NCBI RefSeq assembly: GCF_024494725.1
Contig: NZ_JANHDK010000001.1
Location: 1,054,001-1,118,000, forward strand
Length of the DNA: 64,000 bases
Direction: 5' to 3'
Source: Haloplanus ruber
GTDB taxonomy: Archaea > Halobacteriota > Halobacteria > Halobacteriales > Haloferacaceae
Made by a program: the position numbers and the translations under genes. The notes under the pieces were generated by a model. It searched no databases, was not told the DNA's origin, and was given only the letters and a program-made list of their open reading frames with translations. This document shows, one piece after another, positions 39,552 through 44,122 of the stretch. How positions within the stretch are numbered: position 1 is the stretch's first letter; every line of letters begins with the position of its first letter.

Positions 39552-39574
39552 CCCCCGCGACGAATCGGGGCCCG

Positions 39575-40393
39575 ATGTACGTCTATGGACTGATCGGCAA
39601 CCCGGTCGGGCACTCGCTCTCGCCGCCGATGCACGAGGCGGCCTACCGCGAACTCGACGTGGACGCCCGCTATGTCACGTTCGAACCCGACCCCGACGAC
39701 GTCGCCCACGCCGTCGAAGGGGCGGCGGCACTCGGTATTGACGGCCTCAACGTCACCATCCCGTTCAAACAGGACGTCCTCGAACTCGTCGACCCCGACG
39801 ACCTCGCGGCACGCATCGGCGCCGTCAACACCATCGACTTCTCCACGTCGCCGCCTCGTGGGTACAACACCGACGCCGCAGGGGTTCGCCGCGCCTTCGA
39901 ACACCACGACGTCGCACTCGCCGGCACCGACGCCGTCGTCGTCGGTGCGGGCGGCGCCGGCCGGGCCGTCGCCGTCACCCTTGCCACCGCCTGCGATACG
40001 GTCCACGTGGCCAACCGAACCGTCGAACGAGCGGACGAACTCGCGGCCGACGTCCGCGCCGATGATCCGACGGCCACCGTGACGGCCGGCGGACTCGACA
40101 CCCTCGCGGATCGGGTGCCTGCGGCCGATCTGCTCGTCAACGCGACGAGCGTCGGGATGGAGGAAGACGCCACACCGGTGCCGGAAGATCTGCTACACGG
40201 GGATCTGGCCGTCCTCGACGCGGTGTACTCGCCGGTCGAGACGCGTCTCCTCCGGGCGGCCGCCGACGCGGGTGCGACGGTCATCGACGGCGCGTGGATG
40301 CTCCTATTCCAGGGCGTCGTCGCCTTCGAGCACTGGACGGGGCGTGACGCCCCCGTCGACGTAATGAACGAGACACTCAGGTCACATCTCTGA
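39575..40393 (+). CDS. aroE: Shikimate 5-dehydrogenase
   Basis: 272 residues. Substrate residues Ser14 and Ser16 (GHSLSPPMH), catalytic Lys65 (NVTIPFKQD), Asn86 and Asp100 (GYNTDAAG) are present, and GAGGAG at 124-129 binds NADPH. It reduces 3-dehydroshikimate to shikimate for aromatic amino acids. No other shikimate gene lies beside it. Confidence 0.95.
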
Positions 40394-40403
40394 CTGCCTC
40401 GAA

Positions 40404-40415
40404 GGTTTTTAAATG
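40404..40415 (+). promoter_or_regulatory. TATA promoter of the HhH protein gene
   Basis: GGTTTTTAAATG is centred about 29 bases before the ATG at 40439; leaderless spacing. Confidence 0.6.
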
Positions 40416-40438
40416 CCGGGCGGCCGTACATATTATCA

Positions 40439-40948
40439 ATGGGAATCCTGGATACGCTGCTGTCGCTGCTCGGACTGGGTGGGTCGTCGAGCGACGAGCG
40501 ACGGGAGACGACCGTCAGCGTCGAACGCGAGCGGGCCAACACAGACTCCGAGGCGGCCGTCAAGGGCACTGATCCCGCCGACACGGCCGCCGCCGGGACG
40601 GAGGCCACCGCGTCGACCGGGTCGCTGGTCGACGAGGACGCCGACGCCGCCGCCGAACCTGCCGAGGCAGCGGGTCCCGACGCGGGCGATACGGAGACGG
40701 AACTCGACACTGCGGCGGCCGAATCCGCCGGCGAGTCGACCGGCGAACACGACGGACCACCAGAGGTGGACGTCGAATCGGTCGAGGTCATCAAGGGTAT
40801 CGGCCCCGCCTACGCCGAACGACTCTCCGCGGCGGGCGTAGAGTCGGTGGCCGACCTCGCGGCCGCGGACGCGGAGGACCTCGCGCCACAGATCGACCTC
40901 TCGGCGAAGCGGGTCGGCCGCTGGATCGACCGCGCGAAGGACCGCTGA
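40439..40948 (+). CDS. Helix-hairpin-helix protein with amphipathic N-terminus and acidic linker
   Basis: 169 residues in three parts. Residues 1-15 (MGILDTLLSLLGLGG) form a short hydrophobic or amphipathic helix. About 16-108 is a disordered Ala/Glu/Asp/Thr-rich linker. Residues 112-169 hold a helix-hairpin-helix pair (IKGIGPAYAERLSAAGVESVADLAA), of the type found in DUF4332/RNA polymerase alpha-CTD-like proteins that bind DNA or proteins. The next gene follows after six bases and is probably co-transcribed. Confidence 0.8.
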   Translation: MGILDTLLSLLGLGGSSSDERRETTVSVERERANTDSEAAVKGTDPADTAAAGTEATASTGSLVDEDADAAAEPAEAAGPDAGDTETELDTAAAESAGESTGEHDGPPEVDVESVEVIKGIGPAYAERLSAAGVESVADLAAADAEDLAPQIDLSAKRVGRWIDRAKDR

Positions 40949-40954
40949 CCGGCG

Positions 40955-41839
40955 ATGTACCACGTCGACGGCCGCCTCGTCGACACCGCGACGCTCTCGC
41001 TGGACGACCGCGGGGCCGCCCTCGGCGACGCCGTGACCGACACGCTGCGGGTCTACGACGGCACCCCGTTCGCGTGGCGACGCCACGTTGACCGCCTGTT
41101 CGATGCCTGCGAGCGCCACGGGTTCGACCCCGGGGTCGACGCCGACGCTCTCCGGACACGGGTCGAGGAGACGCTCGCCGCCGACGGCCTCGAAGACGCG
41201 CTGGTTCGGATCTCGATCACCCGCGGGTGTGCCACCGGTGACGAGGAGACTGGGTCCGCTCTCCCGGACGCCGACCGCCTCCGTCCCCCCGCCGACCCCG
41301 ATCCGACCGTCGTCGTCTCGGCGACGCCGGCCCCGTCGGACGACGCGGCGCCGGTGACTGTCCAGACCGTCCGCACCCGTGCCATCGCGCCCGACGCGGT
41401 GCCGGCGGCGTCGCTCACCCACAATCGACTCGACGCGGTCCGCGCCCAGGCGGAACTCCGGCGGGCGGCACCCCCCGACGACGACCCGGCGGACGAGGCC
41501 CTCCTGTTGGACGCCGCAGGCAACGTCGTGAGCGGGACGGTGAGCGACCCGTTTTTCGTCGACGGCGACGCAGTTCGACTCCCGGAACTCGGCGACCGAC
41601 CCGCCCGGACCGCCACCCGGTCGGTCGTCCGCGAACTCGCCGCCGAGGAAGGGTTCCCCGTCGTGACGGGCGACTACACGCCCGCCGACATCAGGGGGGC
41701 CACGGAGGCGTTCGTCGCGGAACCGAGCGCGGGTGTCCGTCCGATCACCCGACTCGACGGCGTCACGGTCGGCGGTGGCCCCGTCACCGACCTGCTCGCT
41801 CGGCTGTTCGCGGAACGCGTCGCCGCAACCGGCGGGTGA
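40955..41839 (+). CDS. Aminotransferase class IV homologue lacking any lysine
   Basis: 294 residues with the overall layout of class IV (PabC/IlvE) PLP enzymes: N-terminal DDRGAALGDAVTDTLRVYDG, RISITRG at 85-91, DEALLLDAAGNVV, and a final GVRPITRLDGVTVG. However, the residue expected to hold PLP (Lys three positions before the conserved Asn157 in THNRLD) is Leu154, and the protein has no lysine at all. The usual Glu-x3-Ser-Asn after the GNVV strand is also altered (SGTVSDPFF). It is intact in frame, so it is either a non-PLP derivative or a decaying paralogue. Canonical members make 4-aminobenzoate or branched-chain amino acids. Confidence 0.8.
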   Translation: MYHVDGRLVDTATLSLDDRGAALGDAVTDTLRVYDGTPFAWRRHVDRLFDACERHGFDPGVDADALRTRVEETLAADGLEDALVRISITRGCATGDEETGSALPDADRLRPPADPDPTVVVSATPAPSDDAAPVTVQTVRTRAIAPDAVPAASLTHNRLDAVRAQAELRRAAPPDDDPADEALLLDAAGNVVSGTVSDPFFVDGDAVRLPELGDRPARTATRSVVRELAAEEGFPVVTGDYTPADIRGATEAFVAEPSAGVRPITRLDGVTVGGGPVTDLLARLFAERVAATGG

Positions 41840-41856
41840 CGGTGTGGCGCCGACGT

Positions 41857-41869
41857 GAGGTATAAATTT
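41857..41869 (+). promoter_or_regulatory. TATA promoter of the Rieske gene
   Basis: GAGGTATAAATTT, centred 29 bases before the ATG at 41892; a near-perfect archaeal TATA box. Confidence 0.7.
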
Positions 41870-41891
41870 CGGCGGCCAATACCCCGACCCG

Positions 41892-42305
41892 ATGGATGCC
41901 GACCGGCGGATGACGTCGCTCGATTCGGTCCCCAACGACACCACCTTCCTCGTCACGCTCCGTCGCCGCGACACCGGCGAAGAGCGCGAGGCGGTGTTGG
42001 TTCGCGCCGACGGCGGGGTGCGTGGCTGGCTGAACTACTGTCGACACCTGCTGGACGTGCGACTGGACAAGGGGTCGGGCGCCCCGATGCGCGACGGCGA
42101 ACTCGTCTGTGCGAACCACGGCGCCTACTTCGAGGCCGACTCCGGCTACTGTACGTTCGGCCCCTGTGAGGGTGCCACCCTCGAAGCCGTCGACGTGGCC
42201 GTCGACGACGGGGCCGTCTATCTGACCGACGACGACTACGCCTTCGTTACGACCGGATCGCTCGACGACGGCGGTCCCTCCCCGTCGTCGAACGTCGAGT
42301 TCTGA
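41892..42305 (+). CDS. Rieske [2Fe-2S] domain protein
   Basis: 137 residues. The cluster ligands are Cys50-x-His52 (NYCRHLLD) and Cys73-x2-His76 (CANHGAYF), with CTFGPCEG giving the two further cysteines common in Rieske folds. No membrane anchor or catalytic domain is attached, so it resembles a soluble ferredoxin-like Rieske protein or the small subunit of an oxygenase/nitrite-reductase system. Its redox partner is not in the window. Confidence 0.9.
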   Translation: MDADRRMTSLDSVPNDTTFLVTLRRRDTGEEREAVLVRADGGVRGWLNYCRHLLDVRLDKGSGAPMRDGELVCANHGAYFEADSGYCTFGPCEGATLEAVDVAVDDGAVYLTDDDYAFVTTGSLDDGGPSPSSNVEF

Positions 42306-42796: not shown

Positions 42797-42861
42797 TCGC
42801 CCTCCCAGGTCGCCCGGAAGCGCGAGCAATCTGTTGGCGGCGACGTGTCACGCCGGGTCCG

Positions 42862-42873
42862 CCTTTTTTATTC
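42862..42873 (+). promoter_or_regulatory. TATA promoter of the PQQ-like gene
   Basis: CCTTTTTTATTC is centred 29 bases before the ATG at 42896, and it decides that start over the GTG at 42845. Confidence 0.6.
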
Positions 42874-42895
42874 CCGCGTCTGGACGTGCCGACTG

Positions 42896-44122
42896 ATGCC
42901 CTCCATCACGCGCCGCCGACTCCTCGGTGGAAGCCTCGCCCTCGCGGCCGGTGGCTACGGAACCTACCGCCTGCACCGCGGCGCAGCCGCGGCGACGTTC
43001 GACGCCTGGACGCCCGCCCCCGGAACGTGGCCGCTCCGTCGATACGACCCCGCGAACACCGCACACAATCCACACGCGACGCCGCCGAGAGAGCGACCCA
43101 CACTCCGAGAGTTCACCACGCTCTCGACGTCCGCCAGACGCCCGTCGTACTCGCCGCTCGTCGGCCCCGACTACGTCGTCGTCTATGGCTCGGGGCTCGC
43201 GGCCTACGCCCGCGACGACGGATCGGCGGCCCGTACCGTCGCGGCCGCGACGCCTCGCGCGGGATTCGGCCCCGACGGTCACCTCCACACGGTTAGCCTC
43301 GAATCGGACACCGACAGCGCGCCCACGGCCGTCGTCGGCTACGAGGCGGCCGACCTGCGCGAGCGCTACCGGGTGCCGCTCGATGCCGACAATCCTCGCG
43401 GCCTGACGGTCGGAACGGACGAGGTGTACCTCGGAACCGAACAGGGAACGCTCCACGGGGTCGACGCCGACGGCGGCCGGCGCTGGCGGGTCGACGGCAC
43501 GATGCCCGCCCTCGTCGATAACCGCCTGTACGCCGCCGGAGCACCCCTCGACGGGACCGTCGCGTACGCCGAGCGCACCGGGTGTGACCGGTCGCTCCGG
43601 CCGGGGCCGCGACGGGCGTGGAGCGCCGGTCCCGTGTCCGGCTTCGTCCACGCCCCCGCCGTCGCCGACGGCCGTCTCGTCGTCGGAACCTACGCGGAAG
43701 GTGGCGGCGTGGTCGCCGCCGTTGACGCCATCTCCGGCGACCCCCTGTGGGAGCCTCGGCCGCTGGGTGTCGACGTCGCCACGCCGGCCGTCGTCGGCAC
43801 CCACGGCTACGTCGCCACTGGCACTGACGACCGACGAGCGGGCCTCGTCGCGGCACTCGATCTCCGGACGGGCGAGAGCGAGTGGCGTGACGAGACCGAG
43901 TGGCACGCCCTCACCCCCGCCGTCGGCGGCGATACGCTCGTCGTGGCCGGGGAGGCCCGAGAGGGCGGCGAGGTGGTCGGCGGGGTGGTCCGGGCCTACG
44001 ACCGCGCCGGGGGCGAACGGCTGTGGACCCACCGGTTCGAAACACCGGGGGTCGGCGGCCTGGCGCTCGTCGGTGGGCGCGTGCTGGTCGCGGCGGGGTC
44101 GTCAGTGTACGAACTTCGGTGA
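42896..44122 (+). CDS. Exported PQQ-binding-like beta-propeller protein
   Basis: 408 residues. The N-terminus has a Tat motif (TRRRLLGGSLALAAGG, residues 5-20), so it is exported folded. The mature part is a beta-propeller of repeating units such as YLGTEQGTLHGVDADGGRRW and ALDLRTGESEWRD, the PQQ/BamB type. No quinoprotein catalytic residues can be assigned, so a binding or scaffold role outside the cell is more likely than dehydrogenase. Its 3' end overlaps the converging CHAD remnant. Confidence 0.85.
   Translation: MPSITRRRLLGGSLALAAGGYGTYRLHRGAAAATFDAWTPAPGTWPLRRYDPANTAHNPHATPPRERPTLREFTTLSTSARRPSYSPLVGPDYVVVYGSGLAAYARDDGSAARTVAAATPRAGFGPDGHLHTVSLESDTDSAPTAVVGYEAADLRERYRVPLDADNPRGLTVGTDEVYLGTEQGTLHGVDADGGRRWRVDGTMPALVDNRLYAAGAPLDGTVAYAERTGCDRSLRPGPRRAWSAGPVSGFVHAPAVADGRLVVGTYAEGGGVVAAVDAISGDPLWEPRPLGVDVATPAVVGTHGYVATGTDDRRAGLVAALDLRTGESEWRDETEWHALTPAVGGDTLVVAGEAREGGEVVGGVVRAYDRAGGERLWTHRFETPGVGGLALVGGRVLVAAGSSVYELR

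Follow-up and report, generated by a model that had tools for sequence, protein, structure and literature searches.

Among described systems, the PabC proteins of haloarchaea (for example, HVO_0708 of Haloferax volcanii) resemble the protein analyzed here, which we call PabCx, in full-length fold-type IV homology and in the ancestral gene neighborhood. Unlike PabC, PabCx lacks the Schiff-base Lys, the Glu that contacts N1 of PLP, the Ser-Asn (SN) motif, and the Gly of the phosphate loop, and pabB and pabA are not adjacent to its gene. The branched-chain and D-amino-acid transaminases (PF01063) share its Pfam domain, and class IV transaminases are its best matches among solved structures, but the cofactor residues of PabCx are altered and transaminase activity is unsupported. 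The plant tryptophan synthase beta pseudoenzyme, TSB-like, presumably has a fold that differs from that of PabCx. It is a PLP-enzyme paralog that has lost key residues and has a non-catalytic role, as we propose for PabCx; the organisms differ, and its partner and role are experimental according to an extract of PMC12727527, whereas we infer those of PabCx.

The cofactor site of these enzymes is described for P. aeruginosa PabC. According to an extract of PMC3174152, the equivalent Lys binds PLP, Glu173 contacts N1, Arg46 holds the phosphate as part of a His43-Glu28-Arg46 network, and any alteration of Gly199 would clash with the phosphate. In haloarchaea, the pABA pathway still rests on prediction, as an extract of a 2021 review states (PMC8305020). 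No Lys-less PabC was described in the open-licence literature that we searched on haloarchaeal and archaeal PabC, PLP and fold-type IV pseudoenzymes, and inactive BCAT paralogs.

PabCx is encoded in a stretch of 64,000 nucleotides from Haloplanus ruber (hereafter the window). The features of the locus are as follows.

39566..40393, plus strand: shikimate dehydrogenase gene (aroE), the upstream neighbor, from profile matches; it adjoins the HHH gene in 12/12 Haloplanus loci
40406..40414, plus strand: TATA-like element, about 29 nt ahead of the start codon of the HHH gene, read from the sequence; putative promoter
40439..40948, plus strand: helix-hairpin-helix (HHH) protein, 169 aa, first gene of a two-gene unit (HHH_5, E 8.1e-13)
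40955..41839, plus strand: PabCx, Lys-less class IV aminotransferase/PabC homolog, 294 aa, from translation, Pfam, orthologs, and dN/dS
41860..41869, plus strand: TATA-like element preceding the Rieske gene, read from the sequence; putative function
41892..42305, plus strand: Rieske [2Fe-2S] protein, the downstream neighbor (PF00355, E 1.1e-05), in 12/12 Haloplanus loci

The HHH gene is present in 12/12 Haloplanus loci, including those without PabCx. It ends 6 nt ahead of PabCx in the window, and the gap between the two genes is -1 to 6 nt in 10/10 loci, which confirms their co-encoding as stated in a first-pass annotation made from the sequence alone. In all 12 Haloplanus genomes, the HHH gene is preceded at the same position by a TATA-like element (GTTTTTAA in 11 and GTTATTAA in G011), and the one at 40406..40414 probably serves the HHH-PabCx unit as a leaderless promoter. 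Given the TATA-like element ahead of it, the Rieske gene probably has its own promoter. In the two genomes without PabCx, 152 nt (G009) and 109 nt (G011) separate the HHH gene from the Rieske gene. The G009 spacer (locus L178) contains an inverted repeat, GGTGGTTCG...CGAACCACC, possibly a terminator or a scar. An antisense open frame of 512 aa (40436-41974, minus strand) spans the HHH and PabCx genes and was judged to be an artifact of high G+C content.

The PabCx frame starts with an ATG at 40955 and ends with a TGA at 41837-41839. Residues 27-266 match Pfam PF01063 (Aminotran_4) with an E value of 5.5e-34 and 118.4 bits, against a curated cut-off of 28.5, so that both translation and profile agree with the earlier description of a 294-aa class IV aminotransferase homolog with zero Lys. 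Scores on the NCBIfam class IV models are far below the cut-offs, including those of the PabC equivalogs PRK06092 (82.6 versus 260) and TIGR03461 (75.6 versus 176.85), models on which the resident haloarchaeal PabC was not scored. The same genome encodes three class IV proteins: IlvE, a normal PabC (the resident PabC), and PabCx, which is ~46% identical to the resident PabC. An AlphaFold2 model of PabCx built from two sequences only had a mean pLDDT of 41.3.

The codons that distinguish the cofactor site of PabCx, together with those of an inserted loop, are listed below.

41414..41416, plus strand: Leu154 (CTC), at the Schiff-base Lys position, from sequence and alignments
41426..41428, plus strand: Arg158, a Tyr in Lys-bearing haloarchaeal PabC (78/79), from alignments
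41468..41488, plus strand: residues 172-178 (APPDDDP), a short inserted loop, from alignments with orthologs and the resident PabC
41531..41533, plus strand: Ser193 (Gly in most orthologs), in the place of the PLP N1-contacting Glu, from alignments; role of the Glu from an extract of PMC3174152
41543..41548, plus strand: Ser197-Asp198, replacing the usual Ser-Asn, from alignments
41609..41611, plus strand: Thr219, where the PLP-phosphate loop has Gly (79/79), from alignments; steric role of the Gly from an extract of PMC3174152

Comparison with solved enzymes by HMMER gave 55 distinct sequences at E values up to 0.001, with four alignments inspected, and Leu154 aligned under the Schiff-base Lys of solved class IV enzymes such as 5e25 and 9j32. 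For haloarchaeal proteins, an alignment of 120 rows was reduced by 14 IlvE, one distant, and 10 partial rows to 95 full-length PabC-type rows, a nonrandom sample drawn from best-match and neighborhood loci. Seventy-nine of these carry the Schiff-base Lys and 16 do not. The column is Lys in 79/79 rows besides the 16 Lys-less copies, which have Ala (four), Leu (four), Arg (four), Val (two), Thr (one), or Gly (one); within the Haloplanus orthologs alone, it varies among Leu, Ala, Val, and Thr. The N1-contacting Glu, present in 72/79 Lys-bearing rows, is Gly in 14 and Ser in two of the Lys-less copies. The Asn of the SN motif (79/79) is replaced by Asp in 13, Ala in two, and Thr in one, and the phosphate-loop Gly (79/79) is kept in 2/16. 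Four residues past the Lys, the Tyr found in 78/79 Lys-bearing rows is Arg in 14, Asp in one, and His in one of the Lys-less copies, a column in which two rows of genus g67 align poorly. None of the 10 Haloplanus PabCx orthologs has the Lys, Glu, Asn, or Gly of the PLP site, and Thr219 is invariant in all 10. Retained in the Lys-less copies are His44 (16/16), Arg47 (15/16), and Arg222 (16/16); the window protein has both His44 and Arg47.

These alignments bear out the first-pass reading of a Leu (CTC) at the Schiff-base position, here Leu154 at 41414-41416, and of altered Glu and Ser-Asn positions, here Ser193 and Ser197-Asp198. That a better alignment might place the catalytic Lys elsewhere, a doubt raised at the same time, is ruled out: the protein contains no Lys, and all alignments agree. 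Set against the residue roles in P. aeruginosa PabC, the changes, judged from the sequence, rule out the usual covalent PLP link for PabCx and make ordinary PLP binding unlikely. In the alignments, PabCx is an enzyme homolog without the required catalytic residues, as expected of a pseudoenzyme.

The lack of Lys in the whole protein says less. As a sample for Lys content, 39 ORFs of at least 240 aa were picked greedily in the window, a set that contains the antisense ORF and not PabCx; their mean Lys content was 1.48%, and three had none. The 10 PabCx orthologs have 0 Lys in 2850 aligned residues versus 39 in 2840 for the resident PabC, and base composition alone predicts 23.8 Lys in the 10, an expectation that neglects their relatedness. 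The absence is real but means little as evidence because three of the 39 other long window ORFs also lack Lys, and selection against Lys was set aside as an explanation since such ORFs are Lys-free too. One of the three is the product of a neighboring gene, 425 aa long (42845-44122, plus strand), which we take to be PQQ/beta-propeller-like; it has no Lys, and neither do the counterparts picked in loci L034 and L036.

Twelve Haloplanus genomes were searched for orthologs. PabCx was found in 10, its own genome included, the other copies being 64-85% identical to the window protein, and was missing from G009 and G011. Because two of 12 genomes lack it, PabCx is dispensable in Haloplanus. A scan of genome contigs returned one true ortholog (L091, Haloplanus sp. 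LUM.53) and one distant bacterial match (L092, 24% identity). All 10 Haloplanus orthologs have zero Lys and open frames. A Lys-less clade, whose existence the first-pass annotation had proposed to check, is thus found in 10/12 genomes, and no close ortholog carries Lys; the intact frame and fold signatures that it described are seen in the 10 open frames and in the Aminotran_4 match.

Pairwise dN/dS was estimated by the Nei-Gojobori method with bootstrap ranges, ignoring transition and codon bias. Values for PabCx were 0.28 (0.18-0.39) for G000-G007, 0.17 (0.11-0.26) for G004-G005, 0.42 (0.27-0.62) for G002-G006, and 0.42 (0.31-0.58) for G001-G008; those for the resident PabC in the same pairs were, in order, 0.15, 0.26, 0.23, and 0.18. 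Third codon positions account for 49-64% of the differences in PabCx and 61-74% in the resident PabC, and mean identity is 69.7% versus 80.1%. The dN/dS values and third-position shares indicate that PabCx is under constraint, weaker than that on the resident PabC in three of four pairs, and its maintenance by selection is well supported by these comparisons. PabCx in this respect also matches a pseudoenzyme, being kept by selection (dN/dS 0.17-0.42), although such values show constraint and not role. A sequencing error or a recent loss of the Lys is ruled out by the 10 Lys-free, open-frame orthologs together with dN/dS. Of the two options left by the first-pass annotation, the non-PLP derivative with a putative new role is favored, and recent loss of function does not stand, since the orthologs are Lys-free and dN/dS is well below 1.

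Conservation within PabCx follows a pattern of its own. Between 12 PabC and 10 PabCx rows, 50 columns are invariant in both with the same residue and 12 are invariant in both with a different residue; 88 are invariant in PabC only and 44 in PabCx only. PabCx thus has 106 invariant columns, and PabC has 150, 88 of which vary in PabCx. In the inserted loop, A172, P173, P174, D175, and P178 are invariant in 10/10 orthologs, and the resident PabC lacks A172-D175. Conservation is dense across region 149-175, which matches by position the dimer-interface helix of PabC, in which three residues are fixed differently (PabC Y155 to PabCx R158, G158 to A161, and L163 to A166).

The gene neighborhood indicates where PabCx comes from. 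Many Halobacteria have the order aroE-HHH-pabB-pabA-pabC, often with a Rieske gene nearby (for example, loci L059, L061-L064, L189, L190, L192, L194, and L195). At the corresponding site of Haloplanus, the order is aroE-HHH-PabCx-Rieske, with pabB and pabA missing, and in 12/12 genomes a resident pabB-pabA-pabC cluster is found at another place, next to a peptidyl-prolyl isomerase gene. PabCx is the original PabC of the aroE-HHH site, where it remained once pabB and pabA had gone. In the tree, the resident PabC falls with the copies of families f4, f5, and f12 and apart from the resident copies of its own family (wider group support 83/94), which suggests that it was acquired from another lineage. 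A second pab cluster, from another haloarchaeal lineage, would have taken over pABA synthesis and freed the old PabC. The copy that stayed behind HHH has a changed cofactor site, with its frame and much of its sequence under purifying selection. Splitting of the pab cluster seems to have happened more than once in haloarchaea: at L235, L236, and L237 (G039, G016, and G028, respectively), pabB and pabA are gone from pabC, and the sole pabC is at the aroE-HHH site with its Lys kept.

Similar leftover copies were sought in 170 genomes of the family and 392 of the order, 369 of which gave matches at E values up to 1e-18. The Lys position was read in genomes with more than one match and in genus g4, so that single-copy genomes are mostly outside this reading and Lys-less sole copies could be missed. 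Three other genera, in three families of which one is that of Haloplanus, have similar Lys-less leftovers at the aroE-HHH site. The Schiff-base residue is Arg in g4 (G014, G060, and G061), Arg in G037, and Gly and Ala in G268 and G286. Estimates of dN/dS for these leftovers were 0.23 (0.11-0.40) and 0.23 (0.16-0.32) in g4 and 0.42 (0.31-0.57) in g67. Leftovers accompanied by a second PabC have lost the Lys in 16/18 cases, the exceptions being G031 and G308, and the sole-copy leftovers with pabB elsewhere (G016, G028, and G039) have kept it in 3/3. The G308 leftover (L167/L232), on a contig that ends just past HHH and shows no aroE, has the Lys and a Gly in place of the N1-contacting Glu, and is a possible intermediate. 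In genome G061, a short contig (L184, G061:C242, 3998 bases) encodes yet another PabC, the third, together with pabB and pabA; this copy is closest in the tree to genus g14 and is perhaps a contamination of the assembly.

The Lys may have been lost once or several times. In a careful tree built from all columns, the 16 Lys-less copies fall together with support of 99/98, as they would if a single origin had been followed by gene transfer between families. This is also where long branches meet, and the other analyses point away from a single origin, which we think rather unlikely. When the lineages were placed one at a time, the g67 pair joined the PabC of G039, from its own family (support 84), Haloplanus and g4 fell among lines of family f1, and G037 had no resolved place. 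When five stretches of the active site were excluded, Haloplanus and g4 stayed with the f1 lines and parted from g67 and G037, which went elsewhere. Constraining g67 to group with G039 gave a higher likelihood with either data set (p-AU 0.56 and 0.875). In an aroE tree, G037 lies far from Haloplanus, a result that bears on G037 only as G268 and G286 are not among its rows. The placements suggest, and we favor, at least two independent losses of the Lys.

On balance, we consider it probable that PabCx is a PLP-free pseudoenzyme that descends from PabC, is encoded in a single unit with the HHH protein, and is retained for binding or regulation rather than for catalysis. Its present role is the least certain step and one that we infer: PabCx would be a dimer, co-produced with the HHH protein, that binds or regulates without catalyzing, and His44, Arg47, and Arg222, which it still has, may hold a different small anion in the reshaped pocket. 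A retained role is favored by the 12 columns fixed to a new residue, the invariant new loop, and the conserved HHH gap and TATA-like element; counting against it are the faster change relative to the resident PabC, the 88 of 150 PabC-invariant columns that vary, and the two of 12 genomes without PabCx. The main rival is a slowly decaying relic that became redundant after the pab replacement, lost its cofactor residues, and will vanish. The clean absence from G009 and G011, the faster change than in PabC, and the apparent intermediates G031 (Lys kept) and G308 (Lys kept, Glu lost) are what such decay would leave, and the frame would survive by weak or residual selection, for example through translation coupled to HHH. 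This explanation is unlikely given dN/dS upper limits of 0.26-0.62 in the four Haloplanus pairs and a dN/dS of 0.23 in g4, 10/10 open frames, and newly fixed residues and loop; moreover, since the Rieske gene apparently has its own promoter, coupling to HHH would protect nothing downstream.

Less probable still is a regulatory subunit, in which PabCx would be a dead heterodimer partner of the resident PabC that tunes pABA synthesis. PabC functions as a dimer with its active site near the interface (extract of PMC3174152), PabCx shows dense conservation in the dimer-helix region (149-175), and a dead PLP-enzyme paralog that activates a partner is known in TSB-like (extract of PMC12727527); the three helix residues fixed unlike PabC, however, would fit an interface of PabCx's own as well. 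We regard it as improbable that PabCx is still an enzyme, binding PMP or another cofactor non-covalently or using another residue. The retention of His44 (16/16), Arg47 (15/16), and Arg222 (16/16) in the Lys-less copies speaks for activity, but substitutions affect the Lys, Glu, Asn, Gly, and Phe positions alike, and at the Lys position Haloplanus alone has Leu, Ala, Val, and Thr.

The preferred reading, a PLP-free pseudoenzyme with a retained non-catalytic role, can be extended to the other lineages more tentatively. Replacement of the pab cluster may have made the leftover PabC PLP-free repeatedly, at least twice, giving a new fold-type IV binding or regulatory family with a shared function tied to HHH; we hold this broader reading as possible but doubtful. 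Recurring pocket changes would belong to it: replacement of Glu by Gly and of Asn by Asp, loss of the Gly in the phosphate loop, and often Arg in place of Tyr.

If PabCx is such a protein, it represents a pseudoenzyme lineage within fold-type IV, a group taken to consist of PLP enzymes, and annotation pipelines will go on naming it an aminotransferase or PabC. The stages are found side by side, as intact clusters, leftovers with the Lys, one with the Lys and without the Glu, leftovers without both, and clean loss. This series would be a useful natural record of the loss or re-use of an enzyme once a second cluster has made it redundant, and PabCx also bears on pABA synthesis in haloarchaea.
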